Below, piece by piece: positions 15,556 to 51,799 of a stretch of DNA of 64,000 bases. The first letter of the stretch is position 1, and every line of letters starts with the position of its first letter. The notes beneath the pieces are model-generated. The model searched no databases, was not told the DNA's origin, and saw only the letters and a list, made by a program, of their open reading frames with translations. The stretch spans positions 62,001 to 126,000 of the forward strand of contig SCPZ01000097.1 of assembly GCA_004299305.1 (NCBI GenBank), written 5' to 3'. A program made the translations under genes and the position numbers. This DNA comes from Methylobacter sp. Lineage in GTDB: Bacteria > Pseudomonadota > Gammaproteobacteria > Methylococcales > Methylomonadaceae.

Positions 15556-18500
15556 ATGCAGGAACTACAACCTCAATCGCTAATGCTTATGCCCCTCTTC
15601 TTCCGGCTGGCTACTTTATTGTGTCTGGCGCTCTGCTCATCACCGTTATTGGCGGAATCCGTACCGTCTGCCGAAAAAGTTTCTTTGCAACTCAAATGGT
15701 TGCATTCTTTTCAGTTTGCCGGTTACTACGCAGCCAAGGAGAAAGGCTTTTACGCCGAAGAAAACCTGGATGTTACTATCCGTGAACGTATTGCAGGCAT
15801 TAATAACATTGAGCAAGTTCTAAAAGATGAGTCCCAATTCGGCGTTGCCGATACAGGTCTACTGGAACAACGACTACTCGGAAAACCGGTGGTGGTTTTG
15901 GCGTCCATTTTCCAGCATAGCCCATTGGTGTACCTTAGCTTAAAAAGCTCCGGCATAGTCAGCCCTTACGAACTTAAGGGCAAAAGGGTCATGGAGGATA
16001 GTTATGACAATGCGCCGCTGCTGGCCATGCTTTACGAAACAGGCATTTCCACGAATGAATTCACCCATTTGGATAACACCTTCAATCCCGACGACTTGAT
16101 CAACGGCAAAACCGACGCCATGGTTAGCTACCTGACCGACCAGGTTGATTATTTCAAGAAAAAAGGCGTTGAAATCAACATTATTAATCCTCGCAACTAC
16201 GGCGTAGATTTTTTGAGCGATAACCTGTTCACCACAGAACAGGAAATAACCCGGCACCCGGAAAGAGTCCGGCGCTTCTTGCGCGCCTCACTCAAAGGCT
16301 GGGATTATGCACTCAAACATCAGGACGAACTGATCCAGATCATTCTCAGAAAATATAATCCAAACAACCGCCTTTCTGCCGACCATTTACGTTTTGAAGC
16401 ACAAGAAACGGTCAAGATGATTTTACCGGAGACGGTTCCCATCGGTCGCACCGACATCAAGCGTTTCCAACGTATCGCCGATACTTATCGGCAACTCGGC
16501 CTGACAAGCTCAATGGACCATCTGGAAGGCTTTATTTATGAGCAAGAAAAACACAACAAACTTAATTTCACCCTGGCAGAACAGTCCTGGTTACAAGCGC
16601 ATCCGGTTGTTCGCGTCGGTATAGACCGTGATTTTGCGCCTTACGAATGGATCGACGCCAAAGGCAATTACGTCGGTCTGAGCGCAGACTATATTGCCTT
16701 GGTCGAGCAACGACTGGGCGTAAAGTTCGACATAGTAAAAGATAAATCCTGGGCTGAAATTATTGAAATGGCGCAACGCGGTGAATTGGATATGCTGTCC
16801 AACGCCAATAAGACGCCCGAACGCGAGCGTTATTTAATTTTTACGGAACCTTACCTGAATACCCCTATCATCATTATCAGCGATAATAATAACGGCTTTA
16901 TCGGTACGCTGGATCATCTTGCAGGCAAGCAAGTAACGGTCGAAAAAGACTACTTCATTCAGGAACTGCTGATGCATGATCATCCTGAAATACGACTGGT
17001 TCCTGCAAAAAATGTCCACGATGCATTGACCCTGCTCAGCAGCAGCAAAGTGGATGCCTATATTGGCGATGCCGCTTCGGCAAACTACGCGGTAAAAAGA
17101 GAAGGGATGCTTAATCTCAATTTTTCCGGCGATACCCATTATAAAAGCCTGCACTGTATGGCCGTCACCAAGGCTAATCCTGAACTGGCAAGCTTGCTTG
17201 CCAAAGCGCTGGCCGATATTCCCCAGCCTGAAAAAGACGCCATCCAGACGCGTTGGATGAGTTTAAAATATGAACCCGGTATAAAAACTAAAACCGTTTT
17301 TCTCTATGCTGCCGGAGCGCTATCGCTACTTATTATTATTGCCGCATGGAATATGCGTTTACGCCGTGAAATCAGCAAACGAAAGCAGGTTGAAGAAGAG
17401 CAACGTATGGCCGCCAGCGTTTTTGCAAACACCCAGGAAGGCATCCTGATTACCGATGCACAACGCAACATTATCGATATGAATCCGGCATTCGGCAACA
17501 TTACCGGATATTCACGAGACGAAGTGCTGGGTAAAAAGCCAAGCCTGCTCAAATCAGGACTTCATGACGACCACTTCTATGAAGCTATGTGGCAGGCCAT
17601 AGACCGCCAAGGCTACTGGCGTGGCGAGGTTTGGAACCGTAAGAAAGGGGGGGAGATATTTGCCGAATGGCTGACCATTTCCGCAGTTGCCGATAAACTG
17701 GGCAAAATAACCCATTACATCGGCACATCTTCAGATATTACCCAGCTTAAAGACCAAGAACGCAAACTGGAACTTATTGCCCACTACGATCCCCTTACCG
17801 GCGTGCCAAACCGACTTCTATTGGCGGATCGTATGCGCTTGGCATTTGCCCAAACTAAGCGTGACAACTGTTTAATGGCGGTGGGGTATCTTGACCTGGA
17901 CGGTTTTAAACCTGTTAACGATAAACTGGGTCATGAAGCGGGCGACCAGTTACTGATCGAAATTGCCCTGCGCATTAAAAATGCCCTGCGCGAGGGCGAT
18001 ACCATCGCGCGTTTAGGCGGTGATGAATTTGTGTTTTTATTACTGGGACTGGAAAGGATTGAAGACTGCGAAATCACTTTACATCGCCTGCTGGAAGTCA
18101 TCGGTGAGCCGGTTAGCTTGAGGAACCAAACCGTCTCGGTATCCGCCAGTATCGGCATCAGCATTTTCCCTGACGATTGCTGGAACGCCAAAGCACAAAC
18201 CGAGAATAATACCGACCCCGATACGCTGTTACGCCATGCCGATCAAGCCATGTATCAGGCCAAGCAAGAGGGGAAAAACTGCTTCCACATTTACAATCTG
18301 GAGCTGGATCGCCAACTCCATACCCATCGCGAGGCGCTAAACCGCGTTGAACTGGCGCTTGCAAACGAGGAATTCGAACTTTTTTTTCAACCCAAAGTCG
18401 ATATGCAGCAAGGTATCGTGTTCGGTGCAGAAGCGTTGATACGCTGGCGACACCCTGAACGCGGACTAATCATGCCGAGCGATTTTTTACCGCTGCTTGA

Positions 18501-36615: not shown

Positions 36616-37965
36616 CTAGCGGTGTGTTTCCTTATTTTGGCATGAAACCACTATGACCTGGGCAAAGCCTCCGCCGGGAGTTCGAAAGTTAGTCGTTTGT
36701 CCCTGATATAAACGGGCGCTTATCAATTGTGTCTGGCCTTTATAAGCGTAATGACGCAGATCAAGTTTGAAATCGACAATTTTATTTTCTATCTCCAATT
36801 GTCGCTCGCTCGGTTGCACCAGTGTCTGTGCAACATAATCATTCTGCAAGATTTCAGCAAAAACCCGCCGGGTTAGTTTGTCGCCGCGATATGCGGCTTT
36901 ACTGCCGTAACCTTTAGCGGGTTTGAAAAACAAATGTTTCCGGGTGGCCCATAGTGCTTCGGCATCATCTGGATTAACCGAAATTGTATGCGCGATGCCT
37001 GTAAGCAGTGTGGTCCTGGTTTTAACGTCAACTCCTATATCCAGTAATGCGGCTTCGTCAGTCAGTAGCGCCAAGTTTCTTTTGTCTGCATAAAGTGCGT
37101 GAGCCCGTGGATGGGGGGTAACGACTACCGCTTTTGCCAGGTAGGCTTCGAGTAAGGACTGGTGCGTCGTCGCTTCCAGGCTGAAATCCGTCAGTCGATT
37201 GTAGACCAGGTCGATACGCTGATGTCCGTGCCAAAGCGCTTGATCATGGAATATCAGTTTAGATGGGTCGCAAATAACGGTATTGATGTTATGTTGCTCA
37301 AACAGTCTTTTAAACAAAATAAATTCCGGCAACATATATTGGTTTTTTGGATCTTCGTCGACAATAGCAATCGAAGTTAAAGGTTGTTGGCCTCGTTCAA
37401 CTTGCCATTCGTCAATAAACATCTCGATAAAGGCCTGCTCCGGATTACGGTTGTCCGTTGCCCAGGTTAGGCGTGCCAATAATTGCTCCGCTGCCAGATT
37501 AGAGCAGACTTTTTGCGTACGGGCCATGATGGCATTGAGTAACGCCCCGCCGGCATTAGTGTTTATTTCAATCAATTGCGGTCCTTCGGTACCTAGGTGA
37601 AAGTCATAGCCGAAAAAAACACCGTGAGTCTTTGGTATGAATTTCGCTGCCTCTGGAGCGTAAGCAAGAACACGTTGCTGATAAGCCGGCAAAGCTATAA
37701 CGCTTTCTATTGCAGCAATGATGTCACGTTGTCTGTGTATGCAGGCGTCGGTTACAAATACGGCGGATTCGGAAAAAAGGTAAGGACGTTCTTCAAAGAT
37801 CATTCGGTACAGATTGAAATCGCCTTGCTGTTGCGATAATTCCGCGCGCATTGCTTCTCGGTTGAGTGATGCGTAGCGACATTGGTTATTGAGTTGTTCG
37901 ACCCTTTGTTCGCATGTATGAGCGGTGGCTGTGAGTGATGGGCATGAATTAGAAGAGGAGGTCAT
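36616..37965 (-). CDS. ATP-grasp-like ligase of unknown substrate
   Basis: 449 residues. Segments such as LGTEGPQLIEINTNAGGALL, FFKPAKGYGSKAAYRGDKL and DFKLDLRHYAY suggest an ATP-grasp-like fold, with the metal-binding Glu-x-Asn on one side and a lysine- and glycine-rich nucleotide loop on the other. The order of these parts suggests a circularly permuted member, as in glutathionylspermidine-synthase-like proteins. This rests on motif reading only. No signal peptide. It is isolated, so context gives no hint of the substrate. Confidence 0.5.
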   Translation of the reverse strand: MTSSSNSCPSLTATAHTCEQRVEQLNNQCRYASLNREAMRAELSQQQGDFNLYRMIFEERPYLFSESAVFVTDACIHRQRDIIAAIESVIALPAYQQRVLAYAPEAAKFIPKTHGVFFGYDFHLGTEGPQLIEINTNAGGALLNAIMARTQKVCSNLAAEQLLARLTWATDNRNPEQAFIEMFIDEWQVERGQQPLTSIAIVDEDPKNQYMLPEFILFKRLFEQHNINTVICDPSKLIFHDQALWHGHQRIDLVYNRLTDFSLEATTHQSLLEAYLAKAVVVTPHPRAHALYADKRNLALLTDEAALLDIGVDVKTRTTLLTGIAHTISVNPDDAEALWATRKHLFFKPAKGYGSKAAYRGDKLTRRVFAEILQNDYVAQTLVQPSERQLEIENKIVDFKLDLRHYAYKGQTQLISARLYQGQTTNFRTPGGGFAQVIVVSCQNKETHR

Positions 37966-38300
37966 TTAAATTTTATTTTTACAGGTAAACGAATTTAAGC
38001 ATCGATAACCGTGGTTATGGAGGGTATTGATAATATTAAGCGGGCTAATCATAGAGTAAACTACGACTTATACCCATTACTTATTTTTGCCGGTCAAGTG
38101 AGGGGCGGTAGAGGTGATTTTTTAACATAAGCGATATAACTCAATATTTTATTAAACTGTGTTATATAACGTGATTTAATAAAATGACATGCGCTTTTAA
38201 GTTATTAAATCTTAATTAAATCAAATTGTTGGTATTTTGGCACCAATCATGCTTTTAAGTATGTATATTTTGTTACTTAATTGTATAGCAGAGGTGAAAA
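37966..38300. other. AT-rich region upstream of the copper block
   Basis: 335 bases, strongly AT-rich and without genes. It contains the 38-bp palindrome described separately and is expected to hold the promoter for the downstream small genes. Confidence 0.4.
38147..38184. promoter_or_regulatory. Palindromic operator-like site
   Basis: A 38-bp palindrome centred at 38165.5: arms TTTTATTAAA/TTTAATAAAA and core GTTATATAAC. Its left part TTATTAAACTGTGTTAT (17 bases) recurs exactly at 49194-49210, again as half of a palindrome. It lies 117 bases before the first small gene of the copper block. Confidence 0.5.
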
Positions 38301-38516
38301 ATGAGTCAGCAATTAGCACGCACAGAAGTTAAAAAAAATAATAATGGCGCTTTGTTATTAGGGACTGGTTTAGTTGTTGCTTCCATGGTGTTAGTGCCGG
38401 CCTTGGCAGGTAGGCTGGGGTTGGGAGCTAGTTTGACCGGGGCGTTAAGAATCGCGTTGATGAAGGCCTCAAATCGAGCGGTTCGTGGTGCGACTGATGT
38501 CTCTAAAGCAGCTTAA
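38301..38516 (+). CDS. Small hydrophobic protein, possibly DUF5132-like
   Basis: 71 residues. A polar N-terminus (SQQLARTEVKKNNN) precedes a hydrophobic glycine-rich segment (about 17-45, with VLVPALAG) and a basic, alanine-rich tail (IALMKASNRAVRGATDVSKAA). The layout resembles the small DUF5132 proteins found beside P-type ATPases and HMA2 proteins, but the match is by eye. An AGAGGTG ribosome site lies 7 bases before the ATG. First gene of the copper block. Confidence 0.55.
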   Translation: MSQQLARTEVKKNNNGALLLGTGLVVASMVLVPALAGRLGLGASLTGALRIALMKASNRAVRGATDVSKAA

Positions 38517-38732
38517 TCAAAAGGATGCTGCTGCAAATGCTCAATTGGTGTAGTTGAATTTTCGTAGAATAGTTTTGAATTTTGTTTTGACCTCTTAGTG
38601 CGCCAGATTTTTTTGTCAAATGTCAATCTTATGGGAGCGTCAATTTGGCGACAAAGGGTAATCCCTTGGTGTTGTAGATAAGCTCATATCTTGTTAACAT
38701 GGCAAGCAAGCTAAATAACATAGTTAAGTATA

Positions 38733-38900
38733 ATGACTGATACTAAAAAAGTATGTGATCTTTGCGGATTAGATGTTGAAACGCCTGGTTTTACATTAAA
38801 AACTAAAGAAGGCGATAAAGCGTTCTGTTGCGAAGGGTGCAAGGGTATTTATCAATTGTTAAACGAAGATCAAATTTTGCCTGAGTCCGATCAGGATTAA
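38733..38900 (+). CDS. Small cysteine-rich metal-binding protein (P-ATPase accessory domain)
   Basis: 55 residues, below common gene-finder limits. KVCDLCGLDV and AFCCEGCKGIYQLL give a CxxC...CCxxC zinc-ribbon-like pattern. This is the domain that normally forms the extreme N-terminus of cbb3-associated (FixI/CcoI-type) P-ATPases; here it is free-standing and placed just before the P-ATPase genes. It likely binds or hands over a metal ion such as Cu(I). No strong ribosome site is seen, but the frame, domain match and position are convincing. Confidence 0.75.
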   Translation: MTDTKKVCDLCGLDVETPGFTLKTKEGDKAFCCEGCKGIYQLLNEDQILPESDQD

Positions 38901-38939
38901 TTATTCGCCAATTATTCAAATTATTAAGGAAAAATAAAT

Positions 38940-39194
38940 ATGAAGCTCGCAGCTAAAGAAGTCGCTAAAGGGTCAATTGTTTCATCTACAGTACATACGG
39001 GGAGTCGACTAATGGGTAATGTTGCGAAACATCCGGTTCTGGTCTTTGGCTTAGGCGTAGTAGCCGGCTATTTGGTCTATAAATACAGAAAAGAAATAAT
39101 TTCCAGCACTACCAAAGCGGTAGATGCCGGTAAGGATTTTGTATTACAGCAAAAAGAAAACCTGGAAGATATTGTCGCGGAAAGCAAGGAATAA
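38940..39194 (+). CDS. One-TM protein of the HP..F..G..AG....KYRK family, copy 1
   Basis: 84 residues. A soluble N-terminus is followed by the core HPVLVFGLGVVAGYLVYKYRK (transmembrane helix then basic stop-transfer) and a charged, probably helical C-terminus (GKDFVLQQKENLEDIV). It shares core and tail with the two small proteins at 46766-47065 and 47124-47483, so the three are paralogs. An AAGGAAAAATAA ribosome site is present. It is followed by a terminator. The family is not recognised; size and position recall mycobacterial PacL partners of P-ATPases, without sequence proof. Confidence 0.7.
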   Translation: MKLAAKEVAKGSIVSSTVHTGSRLMGNVAKHPVLVFGLGVVAGYLVYKYRKEIISSTTKAVDAGKDFVLQQKENLEDIVAESKE

Positions 39195-39251
39195 CAGGCG
39201 GTTTCTTCACTCAAAGTTGGTTCATTCTTTATAGAATGAGTGACTTCATTG

Positions 39252-39300
39252 ACGGGTGTTTTTCCTGTTTGCATGAATACAGGGCACCCGTTTTGTTTTT
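39252..39300 (+). terminator. Intrinsic terminator
   Basis: ACGGGTG pairs with CACCCGT around an inner CCTGT/ACAGG stem, followed by TTTTGTTTTT. It ends the small-gene unit 38301-39194. Confidence 0.8.
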
Positions 39301-39318
39301 CTAGGGGCTTTTTAAGTT

Positions 39319-39930
39319 ATGTCTATCCAAAAAGAATTTGTGCTGCGTTACCGTGTGGACGGGCATGTAAGATTTCAAATACCTGTTCAGATTTGTAATG
39401 TTGATGTAGCCAAAGCAGTAACGGATGGCATTTCTGGAATAGACGGCGTATATCGCGTTAATTTCTATCGCAGTCAGCAGAAATTATCTATTCGTTTCGA
39501 TGAAGCTGTTTGTGATTTCAAATCATTGGCTAAGCAGCTCTTTCATTTGCTTGCTGACCTGGAAGAAAAAGGCGCCTTAAAACCAAGGCCCGTTTCAAAA
39601 TCAGTGCTGTGGAAGGAAAAAGCCAAATCCAAATTAGACGGTTTTAAGGCGACGCGCTGGGCCAAAGAAAAGTTCGGCGATGCAAAAGAGACGGTTCAGG
39701 CGGCCAAAGTCATTACCAAGCTGGGCATGAAAACGCCCAAAGCTTTCATGAAAGACCCGGAAAAAACCATCATTGATTTTTTAAACGATATTTTGGTGAT
39801 ATTTCTTATCAGGTTGCACTGGAACAATATTACCCAGCATTGGCTTATAAGTCCCCTCAAGCATCGCTATGAATGGATGGCATTGTTCTATATGTTCTTT
39901 TTACTGGTTCGTTCGCGTAGACAAAAATAG
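39319..39930 (+). CDS. Membrane-linked HMA2-like domain protein
   Basis: 203 residues. Residues 1-90 form a ferredoxin-like HMA2-type domain (RYRVDGHVRFQIP, then GVYRVNFYRSQQKLSIRFDE) without the CxxC metal site. A basic helical middle region follows, and the C-terminus has one or two hydrophobic segments. The domain resembles the N-terminal 90 residues of both P-ATPases in the block. A non-metal-binding HMA fold suggests a docking role (inference). It is 90 bases upstream of the first ATPase gene. Confidence 0.7.
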   Translation: MSIQKEFVLRYRVDGHVRFQIPVQICNVDVAKAVTDGISGIDGVYRVNFYRSQQKLSIRFDEAVCDFKSLAKQLFHLLADLEEKGALKPRPVSKSVLWKEKAKSKLDGFKATRWAKEKFGDAKETVQAAKVITKLGMKTPKAFMKDPEKTIIDFLNDILVIFLIRLHWNNITQHWLISPLKHRYEWMALFYMFFLLVRSRRQK

Positions 39931-40021
39931 AAGTTAGGCGAAAGGTCAAGGGTTAGCCTTCAATCAATAGGCTGGTCCTTTACCTTGTACCTGCTTTCCC
40001 CTGCCTCTGAACACTTTCGCT

Positions 40022-42487
40022 ATGGACACACAAATTTTTACGCCGAAAAACTTCCAGCTGGTTCATCAATTAACCAGACGTATCAGAATCATCTCGCCGA
40101 TCTTGAAAAATGATCAAGAGCGCGGCTATATTTTCGAGATTCTGTTAAAGAAACGACCTGAAATAAAACGAATACGCTCAGTTTACACGTTGGGCTCTGT
40201 CGTTATTCAGTTTGACCCAAAGAGTTTGCCAAAAAAGAATTTATTCATTTTGTTGGATGCGGTATTGGGGAATCTTGCCCGGAAACAGGCCGAGCAGCAG
40301 CACCAACACCAACACCAACAGCAACAGAAAATCCTGGATGGCCCGTTACAGGAAGTTGATCTTGCCGTTGAAGGCATGACCTGTGCATCCTGTGCTTTGC
40401 TGATAGAGATGGTGCTGAAGTGCGACCCTAGAGTCAAGCGGGCAAGTGTTAACTTCGGCACTTCAACCCTGACCGTTCATGGTCAGTTAGCTAAAGATGA
40501 TGTGAGCGCCAAGGTAGCGACGCTGGGTTATAAAACCTACGCAATGGATACCCTATCCCAGCGCAAAAACCTGATTGAAAAGGAACAGCAGCGGATTGAC
40601 CTAGCTAAACGCCGGTTCATCTGGTCCGGCATTTTGAGTTTTCCCGTTGTGCTTGTCGGCATGAACATGCCGACATCACGCTGGCTGCATTGGTTGCAGT
40701 TTGCACTTACAACGCCGGTAGTCTTCTGGTCCGGTTGGGGTTTTTTTACCAAAGCCTGGCGTTTGGCAAAACAACGAACGGCCAATATGGATACCTTGAT
40801 TGCTCTCGGCGTCGGCTCGGCTTACGGTTATAGTTTGCCTGCATTATTCAGGCGTAAAGGCCATATCTATTTTGAAGCGGGCGCGGCCATTATCACCTTT
40901 GTACTATTGGGGCGTTTTTTAGAGGAGCGAGCCAAAGGCAAGGCCGGTGAAGCGATACGTAAACTGGTCGATTTGCAACCGCAAACCGCAACCCTGATCC
41001 GTGACGGACAAGAGATAGTCATTGGCGTTGACGATTGCGCTATAGACGATGTGTTGCTGGTTCGTCCCGGCGAAAAAATACCGACCGACGGCATCGTGAT
41101 TCAGGGCGTATCCACGGTTGACGAAGCCATGGTGACAGGGGAAAGCCTGCCTGTGGTAAAAGACGTGGGTCATCAGGTGATAGGCGGCTGTGTTAACGGC
41201 AGCGGCGCGTTGCGCATTCGCGTGACGGCGGTGGGCATGGACACCGTACTGGCCGGGATAGTACACATGGTTGACCAAGCTCAGGCAACCAAGTTACCGA
41301 TCCAAAAACAGGTCGATAAAATTTCCGCCGTGTTTGTGCCGTCAGTAATGATCCTGTCGGGTTTAACCATGGCCGGTTGGCTGCTGGTAGGTGCGCCATT
41401 CGGCTTCGCTTTCGGTAACGCGATCACGGTATTGCTGATTGCCTGTCCTTGCGCACTGGGTTTGGCAACACCGGCGGCGATTATGGTGGGGGCAGGGCAG
41501 GCGGCAAGTATGGGGATTTATATCCGCAACGGAGAAAGCCTGGAAATGGCGGCAAAGCTCAATGTCGTCGTTTTCGACAAAACCGGCACGATTACCGAAG
41601 GCAAGCCTAAAGTCACTGATTTGCTTAAATTATCTCGAATCAGCGAAGAAAAAATAATCAGGCTGGCGGCTTCTGCAGAACATAATTCGGAACATTTTTT
41701 GGGCAAGGCGATTGTTGCCTATGCTAAAGAGCAGTCTATCGAGTTGCAGGAATGCACGCATTTCTACAGTGAAACCGGTCGAGGCATTGAAGCTGAAGTT
41801 GACGGCAAAAAACTGTTGCTGGGTAACAATGCCTGGCTGCTGGATAAAGGCATTGTTGTTGATAGCTTATTAAGCGCAGCCAGTGACTTTTCCGGGCAGG
41901 GCAAAACGCCGGTATTCATGGCCGTCAACGGCAAAGCGGCGGCTGTATTCGGTATTGCCGACAAGCCCAGGCCGCAAGCCATACAAGCCATACAACACCT
42001 GAAAAAACTGGGTATTCATACGCTGATGGTAACCGGCGATACTGAAAAAACGGCCGATTATATTGCCGCCATAGTAGGCATCGAAACGGTTATCGCCAAT
42101 GCCAAGCCCGAACAAAAATTGGCTATCATTCACCAGTTTCAGGATGAAGGTAAAAACGTCGGCATGATCGGCGACGGCATTAATGACGCGCCGGCATTAG
42201 CGGCTGCCGATGTTGGCTTCGCCATCGGTACCGGTACTGATATAGCGATTGAGTCGGCCGATATGACCTTGGTGCATGGGGATATTACCAAAGTGACCGA
42301 GGCTATCCAGTTAAGCACCGATACCATCAGGATTATCAAACAAAACCTGTTCTGGGCCTTCGGTTATAACGTTATTGCAATTCCGGTAGCGGCGATGGGG
42401 AATTTGAACCCGATGATAGCGTCGGCGGCAATGGCCTTAAGCTCGGTTTCAGTTATTGTTAACTCATTAAGATTAAATAAAAAATAG
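40022..42487 (+). CDS. copA: Cu(I)-type P1B-ATPase with extra N-terminal HMA2 domain, copy 1
   Basis: 821 residues. A cysteine-less HMA2-like domain (about 1-88), a His/Gln-rich linker ([10 protein letters not shown]), then a classic HMA with GMTCASC (C121, C124). Core P1B ATPase: TGES actuator loop, C475-P-C477 in the ion-binding helix, D519 in DKTGT, and [16 protein letters not shown]. The last helices have GYNVIAIP and [13 protein letters not shown], the YN and MxxSS signature of P1B-1 Cu(I) pumps. It exports Cu(I) from the cytoplasm, for detoxification or cuproenzyme loading. It is 7 bases before the SafE gene. Confidence 0.94.
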
Positions 42488-42494
42488 GATCACA

Positions 42495-43325
42495 ATGGAT
42501 CATTCAACGATGGATCATGGGATGCAGCATGTGATGGCTGCGGCAGGCGGATTTGATTACGGCCTAGCCTTTATGGCCGGCTTGTTAGGCAGCGGGCACT
42601 GTGTGGGAATGTGCGGAGCGTTGGTTTCAGGCTGCTTTATGAGAGCAGGCGCCTCAAAAAGTTATTTCCCATATCTGGCTTACCAGATGGCCAGAATATT
42701 CGTCTACACCCTGGTCGGATTCGCAGCGGCGGCACTCGGCGTCGTGCTGGTTTCCAGTGGCGTGTTCGGTCAAATGCAAAGCATCCTGCAAATGGTCATC
42801 GGTTCCGTCGTTATTGTTCTTGCCTTGGGTATTTTAGGCTGGATTCCCTTTCAGGGATCAGTCAAGCTATTGCCTATGAACTTATTGCGCAAAGGCTATG
42901 CCGAATCAAGAACCAAAGGCCCCCTGTTGGGAGCAACGATTGCCGGATTGTTAAACGGGCTGATGCCTTGTCCGTTAACTTTTGCGATGGCGGTTAAAGC
43001 AACCTCGGCAACGACTATTATGGAAGGCGGCTTGTTGATGCTGACCTTTGGTGCAGGTACATTGCCCACCATGCTGTTCGTCAGTGTGGCGTTCGGCAAA
43101 ATGAGCGCCCACTTTAGAGGCTTAATGATGAAGTCAGCGGCACTGATTATGATTGCGATGGGCTGCTACACCATTTATATGGGCTTGTCGTTTTATGTCG
43201 CGGAAAATTTCCAGCATCATAATTTTATCCACGACATTAAAAATGAAATTGATGCGGTTATTTTGTTTCTGCAACAAATGGTTGAATACTATACCGGCAT
43301 GATCAAAAGTATTCAGGGCGGTTAA
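42495..43325 (+). CDS. SafE/TauE-type membrane protein near copper ATPase
   Basis: 276 residues, six or so TM segments. GSGHCVGMCGALVSGC is the signature of the SafE-like (DsbD-related) family commonly found beside CcoI-type Cu P-ATPases; the paired cysteines in CVGMC are conserved. The N-terminus is Met/His-rich (MDHSTMDHGMQHVM), suggesting a copper site. It follows the ATPase by 7 bases and overlaps or abuts the EcsC gene, so the three form one operon. Role: probably copper handling or reductant relay in the membrane (inference). Confidence 0.85.
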   Translation: MDHSTMDHGMQHVMAAAGGFDYGLAFMAGLLGSGHCVGMCGALVSGCFMRAGASKSYFPYLAYQMARIFVYTLVGFAAAALGVVLVSSGVFGQMQSILQMVIGSVVIVLALGILGWIPFQGSVKLLPMNLLRKGYAESRTKGPLLGATIAGLLNGLMPCPLTFAMAVKATSATTIMEGGLLMLTFGAGTLPTMLFVSVAFGKMSAHFRGLMMKSAALIMIAMGCYTIYMGLSFYVAENFQHHNFIHDIKNEIDAVILFLQQMVEYYTGMIKSIQGG

Positions 43326-44147
43326 ATGCAGCAGGCTGATTTTGTTGCCTTGGTACATGCGGCTCAAAATCTGGAATCAATGAGTCTGGCAACGCGTATG
43401 AGTCAGTTAGTCGGGATGCCGATAGAAAAGGTGATGGCCGCATTACCCGGACACTGGTCCGCCATTGTTACCCGCGTTACTAAAATAGCGTTGAAAAAAG
43501 CACTGGATGGCGCTTTATTGTCCCTGAAATCAGCGCCACGAGAACCGGCGAATAATACACATAAGATTCTCGCTGTCCTCAGTGGTGCAGTCGGCGGCTC
43601 ATTTGGAATCGCGGCTCTAGCAATCGAGTTACCTCTATCTGCGACGATTATGTTGCGGTCTATTGCCGATATTGCGCGTAGTGAAGGCGAAGATCTGGGT
43701 AATATTGATACTAAAATGGCCTGCTTGACCGTATTTGCCTTGAGCGGTGGCGGTTCTGAATCGGAGTCTGCGGATACCAGTTATTACGCCGTGCGTTCGT
43801 TTTTGACTAAAGCGTTAAACGATACATCCAGGCATATTGGCGTGAGTGGTCTGTCCAAAGAAGGTGCGCCCGTGTTAGTTAAGTTACTAAACGCCGTATC
43901 CAGCCGGTTTAGTATCCCGGTTTCAGAAAAATTGGTCGCACAGGCCATACCTGCAATTGGTTTAATAGGAGGAGCTTCAGTTAATTTATTGTTTATCAAT
44001 CATTATCAGAAAATGGCTAAAGCTCATTTTACTGTGCGTCGTTTAGAGCGACATTACGGAGAGGAATTAGTTAAACAGGTTTATACGGAAATTGTAACTG
44101 GTAATGCTGACAATAAAAGCAACTTTGTACCGAAGAAAATTAAGTAA
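43326..44147 (+). CDS. EcsC-family protein
   Basis: 273 residues. ALAIELPLSATIMLRSIADIARSEGEDL is the EcsC family segment. A glycine-rich hydrophobic stretch (AVGGSFGIAAL) and a second at the C-terminus (AIPAIGLIGGASVNLLF) probably associate with membranes. The family name comes from a Bacillus ABC-transporter locus and the molecular function is unknown. EcsC genes recur next to P-ATPase and HMA2 genes. It starts immediately after the SafE stop. Confidence 0.85.
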   Translation: MQQADFVALVHAAQNLESMSLATRMSQLVGMPIEKVMAALPGHWSAIVTRVTKIALKKALDGALLSLKSAPREPANNTHKILAVLSGAVGGSFGIAALAIELPLSATIMLRSIADIARSEGEDLGNIDTKMACLTVFALSGGGSESESADTSYYAVRSFLTKALNDTSRHIGVSGLSKEGAPVLVKLLNAVSSRFSIPVSEKLVAQAIPAIGLIGGASVNLLFINHYQKMAKAHFTVRRLERHYGEELVKQVYTEIVTGNADNKSNFVPKKIK

Positions 44148-44200
44148 ATATAGAGCTAAATATTACCCCGAATTTGATGCAATGCTGCATCCTCCTCCAT

Positions 44201-46687
44201 CTATTTACGCTGCAACCTCAGGGAATTAAGCACTACCGAAATGGAACTTAAGGCCATCGCCCCCGACGCAATCATCGGGTTAAGTTTGCCCAGGGCCGCC
44301 ACCGGAATGGCAATCGTGTTGTAACCCAAGGCCCAGAACAGGTTTTGTTTGATGACGGTCAAGGTTGCGCCGCTCAACTCCATCACATCGGCGACCTTGC
44401 TGATGTCGCCGCTAACCAAAGTAAGATCTGCGGTTTCGATAGCAACATCGGCGCCCGTCCCGATCGCAAAACTAACATCAGCCGCTGCCAAGGCCGGTGC
44501 GTCATTGATACCGTCGCCAATCATGCCTACTTTATTACCTTGAGCTTGCAACTCGCGGACAATGTCGAGTTTTCGATCCGGCTTGGCATGAGCAATGACG
44601 GTATCTATGCCTACCTGTTCGGCGATATAACGGGCGGTTTGTTCGGTATCGCCGGTGACCATTATCGGTTTGATCCCCAGTTTGCGCAGTCTTTCGATAG
44701 CTTGACCGGCGTTCGCTCTTGGCTGGTCGGCGATGCCGAATAGCGCAGCCACCTTGCCGTCCACGCTCACATAAACCGGGGTCTTGCCTTGTGCGGCCAA
44801 GGGTAGGGCGCGTTTTGCCAAGGTTTTTAAATCGACGCCGGACTCTTCAAGCCAGGAGCGATTGCCGATCAAAATATCGCAGCCATCCACTCGGGCATGG
44901 ATGCCGTGACCGGGAATGTTGGTAAAGGCTTCGACCTTGACCGGGCTAACATGACGATCCTGGGCATAAGCGACTATTGTTTTCGCCAGAAAATGCTCGG
45001 AGCCGGATTCAGCCGCTGCGACCAAGGTTAATATGCGTTGCTCGGTTTTTTTAGCGATGGCAATAAAATCGGTAACCTGTGGTTTGCCTTCGGTAATGGT
45101 CCCGGTTTTATCGAATATGATCGTAGTCAACTTCGACGCCATCTCCAGGCTTTCTCCGTTGCGGATGTAAACCCCGCGCCGCGCCGCCTGTCCGGTGCCG
45201 ACCATGATCGCCATCGGCGTGGCCAAACCAAGCGAACAAGGACAAGCGATCAACAGTACCGCTATCGCATTGCTGAAAGCAATTCGAAAACCTACGCCAA
45301 CCGACAACCAAGCCAGGAAGGTAACAGAAGATACCGCTATCACGGAGGGTACAAAAACAGCGGAAATACTATCTACGGTTTTTTGAATGGGTAGTTTGGA
45401 TGACTGGGCCTGATCCACCATATGGATAATGTTTGCCAGGACGGTATCCGTGCCGACAGCAGTGACGCGCATTTTTAGCACGCCATTGCCGTTAATGCAG
45501 CCGCCCACCAGGCGATGGCCATGCTCCTTGACAACCGGTAGACTTTCGCCGGTCACCATCGATTCATCGACCGTCGAAAGCCCGTCAATCACAATGCCGT
45601 CAGTCGGAATTTTTTCGCCGGGGCGAATCAGCAATATGTCATTAACGTGAACTTGGTCAACGCTGATCAGGACTTTTTTGTTGCCATGCATGACGGTGGC
45701 ATTTTGCGGTTGCAAATCGACCAGCGAGCGAATCGCTTCGTGGGCTTTACCTTTGGCTTTTTCCTCCAGGTAACGACCGATCAGGACAAAGCTGATGATC
45801 CCGGTCGCGGAATCGAAGTACAGCCCCCGTTTCCCGGCCAGCAGGGATGCTACGCTGTAACCGTAAGACGCGCCCACACCTATGGCAATCAGGCTATCCA
45901 TGTTGGTAGTGCGTTGCCGAGCCAGTTTTATGGCTTTTTCAAAGAAAGGCCACCCCGCCCAGAGTACGATAGGCGTGGCAAGCAAATGCTGCGCCCAATG
46001 CCAAAACCGGGAAGAGGGTGCGATCATACCGATAACCATAATAGGCAAGCTTAGCGTTCCGGCCAAAATCGCCCGGCGTCGGGCATCGGTCAGGCGTTGC
46101 TTTTCGCGTGCGATCATAATTTGACGCTGAGCCAAACTATCAAGATTCTGCGCCTTGTAGCCCATGTTGCCGATCAACATGCAGACATTCTCTTTAGTGG
46201 TCCGGCCGGTCACCGTAGCGGTTTCTGTTGCGTAATTGACGTTCGCCGATGAAATATGCGGATCCCGCTTCAACAACATTTCGATCAGCAGTGCGCAGGA
46301 TACGCAACTCATACCATCGACACTGAGGTTGAATTCCTGTTCGGCGATACCTTCATCGCCCTCAGCAGGCACCCATTGTGAAGCGTTATCGAGAGCCGTT
46401 GTGGGTTTTCTTTTGCCCAGATTTGCCAGTAACGTATCTAAAAGGGTGAATAACTTTGCTTTAGGTAGCTTTTCAGGGTCAAAACAGATGACAATTGAAG
46501 CAATATCGGGAACTGTGCGAACTTCTTCGATGCCGTCCCGTTTTTGCAGCAGAATTTCCAGAACACAGGCCCTCTCCGGGTCTTTGAGCAGAATCGGCGC
46601 AATAATACGAACTCGCCGGTTCAATGCATGAACCACTTTGCCGTGGCTTAGCTTACCGGTGTGTGAAGATTTCATTTCAGCGTCCAT
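44201..46687 (-). CDS. copA: Cu(I)-type P1B-ATPase with extra N-terminal HMA2 domain, copy 2
   Basis: 828 residues, a close paralog of the 821-residue ATPase, on the opposite strand and convergent with it. The cysteine-less HMA2-like domain (about 1-95) is followed by an HMA with C128-V-S-C131, C482-P-C484, DKTGT with D526, and GDGINDAPA. The Cu(I) signature is intact in the last helices ([21 protein letters not shown]). CPCSLG replaces the CPCALG of copy 1. It lies 78 bases downstream of two small one-TM proteins of the KYRK family, which form its operon. The two pumps may differ in metal affinity or target. Confidence 0.94.
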
Positions 46688-46765
46688 TTGTGGTGATATT
46701 TCAGAGCCTTCAAACCAGCTATGTTGCTACGCAAGACTGCGCTTTAAGATGCTTCCGTTTTATTC

Positions 46766-47065
46766 TTATTGTTGAGCTTCGTTTGAAGTCGAGATAATAG
46801 ACTTGCGATATTTATAAACATAGCAGCCCGCAACGACACCGAGACCGAAAAGCGCCAAGGGATGGCTGACGATTTCCCTGATAAGGCTTTTTCCTGAGCC
46901 GGAACCGGCGGATACAACAGCGCCCGATGCAACGCTGGGGTTTTTCATTATCGACCCCATGCTTTCGCTCATCATTGAGCTCAGTGACATGTTTCTCATT
47001 GAGGCGTCCATCATTGTTGCCATTTCAGCACCGACCACAGCTTTTGTTTCGTGTATATGCGGCAT
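46766..47065 (-). CDS. One-TM protein of the HP..F..G..AG....KYRK family, copy 2
   Basis: 99 residues. A methionine-rich amphipathic N-terminus (MATMMDASMRNMSLSSMMSESMGSIMK) precedes the core HPLALFGLGVVAGCYVYKYRK and a short polar tail. The methionine cluster could bind Cu(I). The core matches the paralogs at 38940-39194 and 47124-47483. An AAGGAACAATT ribosome site is present. It lies upstream of the second Cu(I) ATPase in the same direction. Confidence 0.72.
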   Translation of the reverse strand: MPHIHETKAVVGAEMATMMDASMRNMSLSSMMSESMGSIMKNPSVASGAVVSAGSGSGKSLIREIVSHPLALFGLGVVAGCYVYKYRKSIISTSNEAQQ

Positions 47066-47123
47066 AATTGTTCCTTTCCAAGGTTATTACGATAGACTTG
47101 CAGGTTCTTAACCGAACGATGAT

Positions 47124-47483
47124 TTATTTTGCAAGGTCAGTCTCTTCCTGGTTTTCTGAGATCAGCTCTTTAAGATTTTCTTTTTGTTTCAATACAAAAT
47201 CCTTACTTTGCTCGGCGGTTTTGCCGGTAATCAAAATAATTTCTTTACGGTATTTATGCGTCAAAAAACCTGCCGCTATACCCATGCTGAATATAACCAG
47301 CGGATGCTTGGCCAAGGTTGTCATAACACCTTTGCCGGTTTCTATGATGGCTGCCGCCGCCACGGCCGTAGCAACGCCCTTGACCACCAGCTCGCCCTTA
47401 GACGAATGAGCGCCCGTTGTAGTTGCTTGCCCCTTAACCGGTTCCATGCCGGTAGAATGTGTTCCTGTTGAAATGTGATTCAT
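47124..47483 (-). CDS. One-TM protein of the HP..F..G..AG....KYRK family, copy 3
   Basis: 119 residues. The soluble N-terminus is His/Thr-rich (NHISTGTHSTGMEP), then the core AKHPLVIFSMGIAAGFLTHKYRK, then a tail SKDFVLKQKENLKELI that closely matches the tail of copy 1 (GKDFVLQQKENLEDI). First gene of the minus-strand unit leading to the second ATPase. It is divergent from the SafE-cupredoxin gene across a region with 25-bp direct repeats. Confidence 0.72.
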   Translation of the reverse strand: MNHISTGTHSTGMEPVKGQATTTGAHSSKGELVVKGVATAVAAAAIIETGKGVMTTLAKHPLVIFSMGIAAGFLTHKYRKEIILITGKTAEQSKDFVLKQKENLKELISENQEETDLAK

Positions 47484-47526
47484 CGAATACCCTATAGTTT
47501 AATTAAAATTTATTTAAGACAATTTT

Positions 47527-47575
47527 TATAGCCAAGTCAATTAATATTTATTATAGCCAAGTCAATTAATATTTA
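47527..47575. repeat. Two 24-bp direct repeats in the divergent promoter region
   Basis: TATAGCCAAGTCAATTAATA followed by TTTA occurs at 47527-47550 and exactly again at 47552-47575, a 25-base period (about 2.4 helical turns). It lies between the divergent small-protein/ATPase unit and the SafE-cupredoxin gene, where a paired operator would control both. Confidence 0.7.
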
Positions 47576-47776
47576 AGTTAATATAATATTAAAGTTTCCC
47601 TGTTGCGCTTGCTCCGTTATTAATAATTTATTGCATAATATACAGCCTGAATTTACGCGATTGAAACTAATTGTGCGTCGGGTCAACTTAATTTAATAAG
47701 CTATATTCCGTTTATTTCAATAATTTTACTATTATCCGTCAATACGAATAATGTTGCCCACATCAAAAATTCAATC

Positions 47777-49069
47777 ATGAATACTAACAACGAGAGTTTT
47801 CAGCCTAACCCTGCTTATCGACCCAGCGCTTTGCTCATTGCCTTAAAAAAGATCGCTGCGGTCACGCTTGCACTCCTGGGGATTGGCTTTATTCTTTGGC
47901 TTGATAGCTGGTTTATGAATCACTCCGACATGCCTAAACTCAGTCGCGACATGGGCTATGGATTGCTGATCCTAATTGGATTCCTGACCAGTTTTCACTG
48001 TGTGGGCATGTGTGGCCCGCTGATTCTCGGCTATACCGCAAAATCCGCCACCAACGGACATAAATCCTACGCTACGCATGTTCTTTACGGCATAGGCAAA
48101 ACACTTTCTTATACCTTTTTCGGGGCCTTGTTCGGCGCATTCGGTTCGGTCGTTGCGTTCACGCCTTACACGCAAGGCGCAGTCGGCGTTGCCGCAGGTT
48201 TTTTTCTTATTCTGTTCGGCTTACACATGTTGGAAGTGTTTCCGGCGCTGAGCCATTTCCAGTTCAAGACACCGGGCTTTGTGATGCGTTTTGTCGGCAA
48301 GGAATATCGCAAACACAGCAACCCCTTTGTGATCGGCTTGCTGAATGGCTTGATGATTATTTGCGGGCCGCTGCAAGCCATGTATGTGATGGCCGCAGGC
48401 ACCGGCAGTTGGTCGCATGGCGCGGCTATCCTGTTCTTTTTTGGTGTCGGCACCTTGCCGTTATTGATGGGTTTCGGTTTTTTGACCAGCCTGCTTTCAG
48501 GAAATTTGACCCCGAAACTGCTGAAAGCTTCCGGGGTGATCGTTATGGCTCTGGGAGCTATCATGCTGAACCGGGGCTTGGCGGTCACCGGCACCGGCGT
48601 TGACTTTAATACCCTGGTTGCCCGCGTTTCCCAGCAATTGTCGCCGACGGTCTCGGAAAGTCCTTCTTGCGAGACCGAGCAAACCATTAATATGGATGTG
48701 CTTAACACCGGATTCAAACCGAACAAATTCACGCTACGCAAGGGCATTCCGGTCAAATGGGCGATCAATGCCAAGGAATTAAACGAATGCAATAAGGCGA
48801 TTGTGATTCCTCAATACGGTCTTGATATAAAATTGAAACCGGGCTTGCAGGTCATTGAATTCACGCCTCCCGAAGTTGGCGTGGTGCCGTGGAGTTGCTG
48901 GATGGGGATGATTCCAGGAACCTTTATTGTCGTTGAGAACGCGCCTGCGCCTGAACAGGGTATAACGCCTGGAGCTCAGGAAATTCCGACACTGGAAACC
49001 GATCGGCAATGGCTGGTTAGGGAGCTAAAGCAGCTAAAGCAGCTATGGCATCGGCTGGAAGAGCAATAA
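47777..49069 (+). CDS. SafE-type membrane protein fused to a C-terminal cupredoxin-like domain
   Basis: 430 residues. An N-terminal TM is followed by a SafE-like membrane domain with the signature FHCVGMCGPLILG. From about residue 300 a soluble beta domain follows: INMDVLNTGFKPNKFTLRKG, then ELNECNKAIVIP and VPWSCWMGMIPGTF. W-S-C374-W-M376-G-M378 and the upstream cysteine fit a cupredoxin-like Cu site. The C-terminus is a short charged helix. The fusion probably takes up or hands over copper at the periplasmic face. It is paralogous in its membrane part to the SafE protein at 42495. Confidence 0.85.
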   Translation: MNTNNESFQPNPAYRPSALLIALKKIAAVTLALLGIGFILWLDSWFMNHSDMPKLSRDMGYGLLILIGFLTSFHCVGMCGPLILGYTAKSATNGHKSYATHVLYGIGKTLSYTFFGALFGAFGSVVAFTPYTQGAVGVAAGFFLILFGLHMLEVFPALSHFQFKTPGFVMRFVGKEYRKHSNPFVIGLLNGLMIICGPLQAMYVMAAGTGSWSHGAAILFFFGVGTLPLLMGFGFLTSLLSGNLTPKLLKASGVIVMALGAIMLNRGLAVTGTGVDFNTLVARVSQQLSPTVSESPSCETEQTINMDVLNTGFKPNKFTLRKGIPVKWAINAKELNECNKAIVIPQYGLDIKLKPGLQVIEFTPPEVGVVPWSCWMGMIPGTFIVVENAPAPEQGITPGAQEIPTLETDRQWLVRELKQLKQLWHRLEEQ

Positions 49070-49480
49070 TAAAGACGATTACTGGGAGGCTGTCGTTCGG
49101 GGCAGGCTTTTGTGTCGGTTGGATGTGCGTCATTTGGTTATTAATGAGCAAGGATTATTTAATAATACCTGCCAAGCAGTAGATATAAGTATCTTATTAA
49201 ACTGTGTTATTTAACATAGTTTTATTTTTTATATTCGCCATTTTTATTTACTACATTGATAGCTAATAATTAAATACGATAGGTATATATTGTGCTTTCA
49301 AAATCGGGTTAAATTTACGAGTTTTTTGATATTTGTAATAAGTTGTTGCTATACCTAAATCATTTGCTGATAATCTGGTTGTCTTAAGTGAATCGCACGC
49401 TGAAACCAGCTGATTTAACTATCTAATATTCCCCTCAGAAAACCCTGGGCGACTATCGCACTTTTTTTTGAGTATTGCCG
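49070..49480. other. AT-rich non-coding region with a copy of the palindromic site
   Basis: 410 bases without a gene. At 49194-49227 lies TTATTAAACTGTGTTAT followed by TTAACATAGTTTTATTT, an imperfect palindrome centred at 49210.5. It shares 17 identical bases with the site at 38149-38165. TAACATAGTT also occurs at about 38717, just before the 55-residue protein. Confidence 0.5.
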
Positions 49481-49783
49481 ATGAGAAATTCCTCATTACT
49501 TTTTATGTATTTATCCAGCGGAGTCTTGTTGCTGAGTCTGTCGCTGGTACATGCCTTTTTTAGCGCAAGGGGCCAGCAGGAAAACCTCGGAGAAAAAGCC
49601 GCGCTGGTTAAGACATTGCAGCTTACCGATCTGTGTCTTTTCATCGAAGCGCGCTATACCCGGCATCTGTCGCAAGCCGATTTGAACACCGCATTCCAGG
49701 ATCATCCCTTGTCGCTGGAACACTTCCCGTCCGGTTCGTTTACCCAACCCCCGAAAGGAATCGCCCATGAGAAACTGGATTGA
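49481..49783 (+). CDS. Small exported or membrane-anchored protein, unknown
   Basis: About 100 residues from the ATG at 49481 (a TTG two codons upstream is less likely). A hydrophobic leader (FMYLSSGVLLLSLSLVHAFF) may be a signal or anchor. The remainder is soluble and unrecognised (LCLFIEARYTRHLSQADLNTAF). Its stop overlaps the truncated permease-like frame by 17 bases, suggesting that it was once the first gene of an ABC-transporter operon. Confidence 0.55.
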   Translation: MRNSSLLFMYLSSGVLLLSLSLVHAFFSARGQQENLGEKAALVKTLQLTDLCLFIEARYTRHLSQADLNTAFQDHPLSLEHFPSGSFTQPPKGIAHEKLD

Positions 49784-49865
49784 AAAACAACGTTACATCA
49801 TAGATTTCACCCTCTCTTCGTTGTTGCGCAGAAAGGTGAAAAACTTCGGTTTGCTGGCTTTATAA
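49767..49865 (+). pseudogene. Truncated N-terminus of an FtsX-type ABC permease
   Basis: 32 codons, starting MRNWIEKQRYIIDFTLSSLL and continuing RRKVKNFGLLAL before a TAA. This resembles the very start of FtsX/MacB-type permeases, up to where the first TM helix would begin. No continuation was found in the next 600 bases in any frame, so most of the gene has been deleted. Overlaps the preceding gene by 17 bases. Confidence 0.55.
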
Positions 49866-50481
49866 ACGGTAAAGTAAATTTCTCCATGTTTTAAGCTGCC
49901 TAGCTAACGGAGACTACGCGGCTGCTTTAGATATTAAAAAGTCTATAGCTTCTGTAGCTACAAAAGAAATATTAAAGGGATCTGCATAATAGGCGTTTAT
50001 GGAAAATAAATGACAAACAAGCCGGAAAATGTCATGTGGCAAGTTCGTTACATTATTTAATGAAGGCCGCATTCCCCAAACGTCGATTGCTGGGCGGTGT
50101 ATCACCGACTGTATTTTGGTCCATATTCACTGGGATAGATGATTGGATTTCGTTGTTATGATGTGCAGCTACGTTCTGGTTAATTGAATGGCCTGCCTTT
50201 ACCGATGCAGGCCATTGATCGGAATGGTTAGTGTTAAATCAGAAGGTGACGCATACTAAATTCGGGGTTGATACAAGATTTTGAGCTGCTGCTACCGTAA
50301 GCCTATGAAGTGCTGTTAATAACCATTAATATGAAAATACACAAGCGATTGTATCGTTTCATCTTGTTAGGGGTTTATGCATATTTTGCCGCCGGTAGTG
50401 TGCAGTATTATGCTGAAAGCATGTAAGTTAAAACCCGGCAAGTGTAATGCTTGCTAAGATAGCTTACCTGTATCTATGGGA
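49866..50481. other. Mostly non-coding region after the permease remnant
   Basis: About 615 bases. No convincing gene. A 31-codon frame at 50331-50426 (MKIHKRLYRFILLGVYAYF) could encode a tiny membrane peptide but lacks a ribosome site. A 63-codon minus-strand frame at 49914-50105 has only a GTG start and no support. The stretch may be the scar of the deleted transporter operon. Confidence 0.4.
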
Positions 50482-50856
50482 TCATTTGTTGTGAGTGTAT
50501 GCTTCCAGTTGAATTATTGAATCGATTGTTTTCTCCAGGTTTTCTTCCGCAATAGTTAGCTGTTCCAGTTCTTGTTTTAAACTACCGGTCAACATTTCCT
50601 CAACTAAAATTTTACGGTTTCTGACGGCTATAAGCGATTCTTTAAGAGCTGCAACATTCTTGGAATCTTTGTGAACGGGGACTTTAAGACTGGCGCCGGT
50701 TATTTTTTTTACTATGTTACTGATAGTGCCGGCACTAACATTATATTTCTCCATAATGTCTTTATGTGGTCTTTTGTCAGTAAGCATCTGGATAATGCCC
50801 GCTTTTTCCTCGTCTGTTAATCTTTTCACTACTTTTTTTGTTGTTACGTCTGTCAT
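50482..50856 (-). CDS. HTH-type DNA-binding protein with coiled-coil tail
   Basis: About 124 residues from the ATG at 50856, which has a GGAG ribosome site 8 bases upstream; an ATG 17 codons earlier is rejected. Residues about 12-50 fit a resolvase/transposase-type helix-turn-helix (EEKAGIIQMLTDKRPHKDIMEKYNVSAGTISNIVKK). The C-terminal half (LIAVRNRKILVEEMLTGSLKQ onward) is a probable coiled coil with no catalytic residues. Probably a small regulator or a transposase-derived DNA-binding protein. No operon partner. Confidence 0.65.
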   Translation of the reverse strand: MTDVTTKKVVKRLTDEEKAGIIQMLTDKRPHKDIMEKYNVSAGTISNIVKKITGASLKVPVHKDSKNVAALKESLIAVRNRKILVEEMLTGSLKQELEQLTIAEENLEKTIDSIIQLEAYTHNK

Positions 50857-51067
50857 GTCAATCTCCAATAAAAAATTTAGTGTAAGACTTTTAATGGAAT
50901 ATATCAACTACACAATACATTTTAATATCATAGCGATACCTGTCGATTTTATCGCTGATCGTTTACGCCCTGTTTATTACATTCAAAGTATGGATCATCA
51001 CAATCTGTAATCCTGGTGATTTTCTGTTTCTTGCCTATAAAATAGGCAAATGGGATACAGTGCAAAT

Positions 51068-51799
51068 TTAATATAAATGATTGTCTTTTTGTAAGTATTC
51101 TCGTTGAATCTGATGCATATTGCGCTGGATAGTGTCTTCAGCTGAATGTGTTATCTTAGTGAATTTGCAGCCGATTTTTTGAATCTTCTGTGATACGGCA
51201 TGATTAATTATATATTTGTAACGAATTTCAAAGGCAATTTCACTCTCCTCCGTCCTTGAAAATATTAGTTTACACTGCGCAAAGGACCTGCCGGGAATCA
51301 GTAGATCAGAAATCTCTTTGGAAACATTAAGTATTGCAAAACCTGTAAGACTAATGTCATGTAACTTAAGGTTAACGGGGTTTTTATCTTCGAGTATTAA
51401 CCGGCAGTAACTGGGTTTTGACGGCGGTGATTTTACTCTGAAGAACTCTCTACGCTGCATCCAAAATAACGATTTAGGAATAGGCATAACGAATGCCGGT
51501 TCTCCTTTATAATTGACTTTTCTCAGTGCAGAACCAACGAATGAAACTTTAATACCTCTATATTCAGTTTCGAATCTGAGCTTGTTGGCATTAACTATGT
51601 GCTTGTTTAAATCTTCTTTGGAACCGTAATCTAAAACCAGCGCATTATTTTCTTCATGGATACCGAGTAATGTGGTGATATAGGATTCATTATTCGCCTC
51701 CAAACGAGCGCTGAGCAGACATTTATTTTTAAATAGCAATGATAGGTGGCTGATTATTTGCTTTGGATTTTGAATTGAAAAAGAAGACGTGTTGCTCAT
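51068..51799 (-). CDS. YcgR-type PilZ-domain protein (c-di-GMP receptor)
   Basis: 243 residues. The N-terminal YcgR/PilZN-like domain is followed by a C-terminal PilZ domain. The linker QRREFFR supplies the c-di-GMP-binding RxxxR, and LHDISLTGFAI supplies the D/NxSxxG motif. In enterobacteria YcgR slows flagellar rotation when c-di-GMP is high; no flagellar gene is nearby. It gives the window a receptor for the second messenger made or degraded by the GGDEF-EAL sensor at 15.5 kb. Confidence 0.88.
   Translation of the reverse strand: MSNTSSFSIQNPKQIISHLSLLFKNKCLLSARLEANNESYITTLLGIHEENNALVLDYGSKEDLNKHIVNANKLRFETEYRGIKVSFVGSALRKVNYKGEPAFVMPIPKSLFWMQRREFFRVKSPPSKPSYCRLILEDKNPVNLKLHDISLTGFAILNVSKEISDLLIPGRSFAQCKLIFSRTEESEIAFEIRYKYIINHAVSQKIQKIGCKFTKITHSAEDTIQRNMHQIQREYLQKDNHLY

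Follow-up and report, generated by a model that had tools for sequence, protein, structure and literature searches.

A Methylococcales gene cassette joins two copper-type P1B-ATPases with small membrane proteins and possibly supplies copper(I) to extracytoplasmic enzymes

We analysed a stretch of 64,000 nucleotides (the window; positions 62001-126000 of contig SCPZ01000097.1) from the 4.49-Mb genome of a Methylobacter sp., where eleven genes form a cassette around two copper-type P1B-ATPases. Because the genome carries an AMO/PmoA gene, in a single copy, the host is likely a methanotroph. All eleven genes, named in a preliminary description of this DNA, are open frames where it had placed them. 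On the forward strand lie g1, a small hydrophobic protein of 71 residues (38301-38516); g2, a 55-residue TRASH-like metal-binding mini-protein (38733-38900); g3, a small membrane protein that we call KYRK a (38940-39194); g4, a free HMA2-like protein with a hydrophobic C-terminal part (39319-39930); g5, ATPase A (40022-42487); g6, SafE (42495-43325); and g7, EcsC (43326-44147). ATPase B (g8; 44201-46687), KYRK b, which has a Met-rich N-terminus (g9; 46766-47065), and KYRK c (g10; 47124-47483) follow on the reverse strand, and a SafE-cupredoxin fusion (g11; 47777-49069) lies again on the forward strand. Pfam confirms EcsC and, through DsbD_2, SafE. In the proposed fusion the SafE half is secure (DsbD_2, 144.7 bits) but the cupredoxin half is sub-threshold (Cupredoxin_1, 20.7 bits, cut-off 27). 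Further along the forward strand are RYTRHL, a 100-residue protein encoded 5' of an ATP-binding cassette (ABC) permease in relatives (49481-49783), and the truncated start of an FtsX-type ABC permease (49767-49865; 56% over residues 2-35), and judging from these genes the bounds of the feature should be extended to 49865. Divergent from g1 is a 449-residue protein (36616-37965, reverse strand) with a sub-threshold ATP-grasp match and a relative in 25 compared loci, the window counted.

Both pumps contain the Pfam domains E1-E2_ATPase, Hydrolase and HMA_2 (31.8 and 31.9 bits, cut-off 30), as well as a canonical HMA domain (37.8 and 37.7 bits) that had gone unmentioned. The motifs CPC, YN and MxxSS, which are markers of P1B-1, are present in both. 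With these motifs and with TIGR01511 scores of 584 and 585 bits (cut-off 397), both qualify as Cu-translocating P1B-ATPases, and at 58% mutual identity the claim of two Cu(I)-type paralogues is upheld. In a midpoint-rooted tree of 49 of 51 rows (L147, which has no TGE string, and the fragment L173 were dropped), HMA2-bearing copper pumps form a single clade of 26 rows (support 100/100) that excludes the E. coli CopA group and two FixI rows, and ATPase B belongs to a sub-clade of its own. The third copper pump of the host genome groups with E. coli CopA (100/99). The window pumps may be nearer to the CopA-type rows than to FixI (fork support 82/72), where the FixI branch is long; they do not group with the CopA1 detoxification exporters, the E. 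coli CopA clade being separate. No cco gene was found among the neighbours of the pumps in the general annotation of the window. About 6 kb past the window on the same contig is another P-type ATPase, with a TPC motif and a score below the Cu-ATPase cut-off (L176:6064-8037).

The HMA2 domains of ATPase A, ATPase B and the free protein all lack a CxxC. The preliminary description had called those of both pumps cysteine-less, which is correct for ATPase A but not for ATPase B (C41, C68); the free protein has C26 and C65. The free protein itself was recognised from an alignment of 13 sequences and a structure model (mean pLDDT, the predicted local distance difference test, 69). The N-terminal part of the model has a ferredoxin-like fold; the HMA_2 score is below cut-off (17.1 bits against 30). 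Its top Foldseek match is the Cu chaperone 2qif (E 4e-3), with none reaching 1e-3, and the structural-neighbour list (VIA) mixes Cu-ATPase domains with unrelated ferredoxin-like folds.

Among the small proteins, g2 is a free ATPase metal-binding domain as proposed (PF12156, 32.4 bits, cut-off 27). g1 has no Pfam or NCBIfam family, and 24 of its positions are invariant in 11 sequences. KYRK b and KYRK c are each 45% identical to KYRK a, in keeping with the three paralogues that had been described, except that KYRK b lacks the C-terminal helix. KYRK matches no Pfam or NCBIfam family above cut-off. The model of KYRK a has helices at residues 4-29, 32-48 and 50-83 (mean pLDDT 74), and a GxxxG helix (not GXXG) is found in 73 of 75 KYRK proteins. 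His and Met are concentrated on the N-terminal side of this helix (means of 3.6 and 3.8, vs 0.2 and 0.01 on the C-terminal side; 0.082 vs 0.005 His per residue in 73 proteins). An N-out/C-in topology was not supported, as net charge is higher past the helix in just 2 of 73. Ratios of nonsynonymous to synonymous change (pN/pS) are 0.04-0.12 for KYRK a (seven comparisons), 0.03-0.13 for g2, g3, g5 and g6, and 0.13-0.26 for g1, g4 and g7. They reach 0.29-0.46 for KYRK c (three comparisons) and 0.57 for KYRK b (one comparison), the latter indicating weak constraint. Profile comparison with hhalign showed no relationship of KYRK to the partner protein of a P1B6-like pump (L143; probability 8.5%), to a DUF5132 protein (2.3%) or to g1 (0.2%). 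Pfam matches of KYRK to DUF5132 were not significant either (3 of 23 proteins, best E 0.24). KYRK is absent from PLSDB plasmids at E 0.01. In one relative, a FeoA-FeoB fusion (L189:15094-17640) is adjoined by a KYRK-like protein whose N-terminus is long and Met-rich (17764-18207); the family may therefore act with other metal transporters as well.

The cassette is conserved well beyond this genome. Named loci with the free HMA2 protein were fetched (the best 80 of 109 confirmed ones), and neighbours were counted in those with enough flank. Judged by title, 67 of the 80 belong to Methylococcales and 12 to unassigned proteobacteria, and the remaining one is from a methane-oxidizing endosymbiont; the best named match of the window's HMA2 gene is from Methylobacter tundripaludum (87%). 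This gene is accompanied by KYRK in 75/75 loci, by the TRASH mini-protein in 70/70, by a P1B-ATPase in 71/74, by SafE in 60/64 and by g1 in 58/68; the run from g1 through SafE is complete in 41/53. EcsC, which the preliminary description had counted as part of the system, is present but is an occasional neighbour (14/57). A profile of the three KYRK copies of the window matches 82 of 151 genomes of the order Methylococcales, and in 29 of the 30 best-scoring loci, the window's own counted, an ATPase lies within 1.5 kb; in the thirtieth the contig ends past the HMA2 gene. Thus, the small genes are kept beside P1B-ATPases in other genomes, and the neighbourhood check that had been proposed for them came out in their favour. 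When 369 genomes of the class were searched, six had KYRK, namely three of the order, two of family f92 (G234, G357) and one with a weak match. Of the 11 loci from this search, three have a KYRK gene but no other gene of the cassette inside 1.5 kb (L041, L042, L044) and one has no cassette gene at all (L039). HMA_2 was also searched for in 299 genomes of the phylum, where matches in 10 pointed to two further cassettes (G767, G541). The order TRASH-KYRK-HMA2-ATPase-SafE is therefore present in four genomes outside Methylococcales (G234, G357, G767, G541), where stretches similar to g1 lie farther upstream. The cassette is also carried by cultured strains, among them Methylotuvimicrobium buryatense and Methylomonas sp. 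LW13, and a search of the open-access literature (one library) found no description of it.

Each half of the cassette carries a palindromic operator-like site. A flank comparison gave a 26-bp match between 38145 and 49190. The word TTAAACTGTGTTATWTAAC is matched three times in the window, once on the opposite strand of the same palindrome, where 0.02 are expected. A matrix built from 15 sites scores the copy upstream of g1, an exact match kept in relatives, at 35.8 bits (38152-38179, forward strand) and the second at 39.2 bits (49197-49224, forward strand). It misses a weak copy just 5' of g2 that has three mismatches to the 17-base core (38710-38726, reverse strand). In 303 kb of partly overlapping pieces of the host genome, including the CopA and pmo regions, it finds only the sites at 38152 and 49197. 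Applied to 89 loci (1.33 Mb), it detects 51 sites, of which 40 lie nearest g1, three before the permease, one before g2 and seven elsewhere. In held-out loci, which are still related to the training loci, a site lies within 400 bp of g1 in 25 of 49, vs 2 of 2078 control windows; among Methylomonas-titled ones the count is 4 of 14. The palindrome also precedes the permease operon in L187 and L188 and, weakly, in L191, and L189 and L190 have no copy at up to three mismatches. Strong copies occur more than 700 bp 5' of g1 in three loci (L069:7082, L070:7306, L073:1595), the first near DUF6164 and YbjQ genes, and in L064 (6138-9876) one of the seven sites found elsewhere separates tonB from a TonB-dependent receptor, some 2.5 kb beyond SafE. 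Promoter and terminator scans gave no excess over shuffles. The two halves are linked by this common palindrome and by their merger in one relative (L190, described below).

In relatives the cassette can adjoin a module for ABC transport and thiol chemistry. All four cassettes outside the order lie next to an FtsX-type permease, an ABC ATPase, an integral membrane protein ('8TM') and a TlpA-like thioredoxin. In the three of these genomes tested for its position, NosL lies inside the cluster (G541), about 1 kb past the stretch (G234) or about 10 kb from the pump (G767); it is present in 8 of 15 genomes tested. The L190 cluster of G004 runs in a single direction through SafE-cupredoxin, RYTRHL, the ABC pair, 8TM, NosL, thioredoxin and a NosL-barrel fusion, and ends with g1, TRASH, KYRK, HMA2, ATPase and SafE. 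In G130, G051 and G036, ATPase B and KYRK b/c are divergent from SafE-cupredoxin, and the latter is followed by the ABC/NosL module and a DsbD gene, matched only in part in G036; in G130 and G051 the genes downstream are NosL, thioredoxin, NosL-barrel and DsbD. RYTRHL homologues occur in seven loci (L145, L147, L149, L150, L189, L190, L191). The window permease stops after 32 codons, and beyond 49868 the DNA is no longer similar to that of relatives. Since the permease is truncated, and neither NosL nor a second permease copy was found in the window genome, the host has probably lost this module while retaining both pumps.

Four known systems are comparable. In mycobacteria, PacL (DUF1490) with CtpC, CtpG and CtpV forms effluxosomes, as described in two reports (PMC9374683, PMC13043812), and the latter describes pump clustering by PacL and a required transmembrane GXXG motif. 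Like PacL, KYRK is a small protein with one transmembrane helix, encoded with a P1B-ATPase and present as several paralogues, with an amphipathic acidic tail and a His-containing segment; its GxxxG may correspond to the small-residue transmembrane motif of PacL. Unlike in PacL, the His/Met segment is N-terminal rather than C-terminal, the linked genes encode free HMA2, TRASH and SafE proteins, and the host is Gram-negative. None of 23 KYRK proteins matches DUF1490 or DUF6110 (Pfam profiles rather than the PacL sequence itself, E up to 10). KYRK thus appears to resemble PacL in plan, without detectable sequence homology. DUF6110 proteins were found in 0 of 398 Proteobacteria, but also in 0 of 14 controls, which makes that search uninformative. 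The resemblance without homology is consistent with the unrelated counterpart that had been suggested, of which the membrane platform is the conjectural part. The maturation pump CcoI/FixI (CopA2), with ccoGHS (L165, L166), shares with the window pumps the Cu-type P1B-ATPase and the PF12156 domain, which CcoI bears at its N-terminus and which is here a free protein. The window pumps differ in clade, in having HMA2 plus HMA and in having no adjoining cco genes. NosL/NosFY-type systems serve copper-site assembly, and the related clusters resemble them in NosL, an ABC transporter and thiol proteins; here the permease is FtsX-type, and the window genome has probably lost the module. Other HMA2-bearing ATPases (L142-L144, L146, L151) are P1B6-like by an HN motif near the last transmembrane helix. 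Those of L142-L144 share the HMA2 N-domain and the free HMA2 and small hydrophobic proteins beside the pump, but CPC is absent from all five. In L148 (9207-10071, reverse strand), a DUF5132 protein lies directly 5' of a free HMA2-like protein, and a P-type ATPase whose N-terminus is HMA2-like is encoded nearby.

The preliminary description had left the choice between detoxification and the loading of a cuproenzyme. Since NosL, thioredoxin, DsbD and ABC genes occur in related clusters, we lean to loading and hypothesize, at a probability of about 45%, that the cassette is a dedicated copper(I)-supply system for extracytoplasmic cuproenzymes. The conserved gene order within and outside Methylococcales, the single-direction cluster of G004, the common palindrome and the separate CopA of the host, by which efflux is already covered, are further points in favour, and the L064 site next to a TonB-dependent receptor would fit uptake. 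Cytosolic Cu(I) would be captured by the HMA domain of the pumps and the free TRASH-like protein and moved outward by ATPases A and B. Outside, SafE and SafE-cupredoxin would receive it, together with NosL, the TlpA-like thioredoxin and DsbD where the module is intact, and copper and target cysteines would be kept reduced during metallation. The HMA2 domains, without CxxC, would serve docking rather than binding. KYRK and g1 would be small membrane partners of the pump, and KYRK, which probably associates with itself via the GxxxG helix, would tether pump and chaperone domains in the manner of PacL. A single putative regulator would control both halves through the palindrome.

Several observations weigh against supply. 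KYRK and the genes of particulate methane monooxygenase (pMMO) are unassociated in 151 genomes (67 with KYRK and AMO, 15 with KYRK only, 55 with AMO only, 14 with neither; Fisher p 0.84), and genomes of the host's own genus have AMO in 9/9 and KYRK in 4/9. This argues for another or a broader target. A strong permease match is found in just 5 of 41 relatives, and not one ABC or NosL cluster is seen in as many as 8 of the named loci; thus, the cassette mostly functions without the module nearby. Half of the held-out loci lack the site, and its position next to a TonB-dependent receptor is a single case, in L064. Grouping of the window pumps with FixI was not supported in the tree. The rarity of the module in relatives, together with the held-out loci that lack the site, slightly lowers our confidence in supply.

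Copper detoxification is a somewhat less likely explanation, by which KYRK and g1 would cluster and stabilise two Cu(I) exporters as a PacL-like effluxosome. The possible position of the pumps nearer to the CopA-type rows, the small proteins adjoining them, the GxxxG helix of KYRK set beside the PacL motif, and an RND-type efflux set in the window (6418-11860, reverse strand; with what look like an inner-membrane pump, a membrane-fusion protein and an outer-membrane protein) are consistent with it. However, efflux is already covered, because the genome has a canonical CopA elsewhere, in the E. coli clade; the thiol and NosL genes of related clusters point the other way, and 36616-51799 holds no copper-excess regulator gene by name or Pfam. 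A system that loads pMMO alone is improbable. The near confinement of the cassette to Methylococcales and the pmoA of the host would suit it, but a strict link is rejected on the 151 genomes, AMO is present in 0 of 11 outside genomes, four of them cassette-bearing, and the 20 kb of contig C59 with pmoA have no operator copy. Handling of a different soft metal (silver or mercury, for example) is less probable still: P1B-1-type pumps can transport Ag(I), and MerC and MerP-like matches are weak and partial, but the NosL, cupredoxin and SafE neighbours indicate copper. Chance neighbourhood without common function is hardly credible, since stray KYRK copies (the three isolated ones and that beside the FeoAB fusion) are set against near-invariant adjacency and an order kept outside Methylococcales.

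Copper supply by the cassette bears on an open question, the route of copper to the membrane enzymes of methanotrophs. The 2004 genome paper of M. capsulatus describes three CopA-like pumps and notes that regulators are missing (PMC517821), and the main text of the M. capsulatus Bath array paper has no occurrence of 'P-type ATPase', 'copper transport' or 'EcsC' (PMC4831470). The question can be approached through a conserved cassette, two families without a Pfam or NCBIfam model, a common operator-like site and cultured strains. Should KYRK act as a pump scaffold, the organisation of P1B-ATPases by small proteins would extend past DUF1490 and DUF6110. A fuller, and rather unlikely, version is a Gram-negative copper-loading platform in which KYRK, unrelated to PacL, would assemble P1B-ATPases that pass Cu(I) to SafE, cupredoxin, NosL and thioredoxin under a copper-starvation operator. 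If this were true, the scaffolding of metal pumps by small proteins would have had at least two origins, and would serve metallation in addition to efflux.

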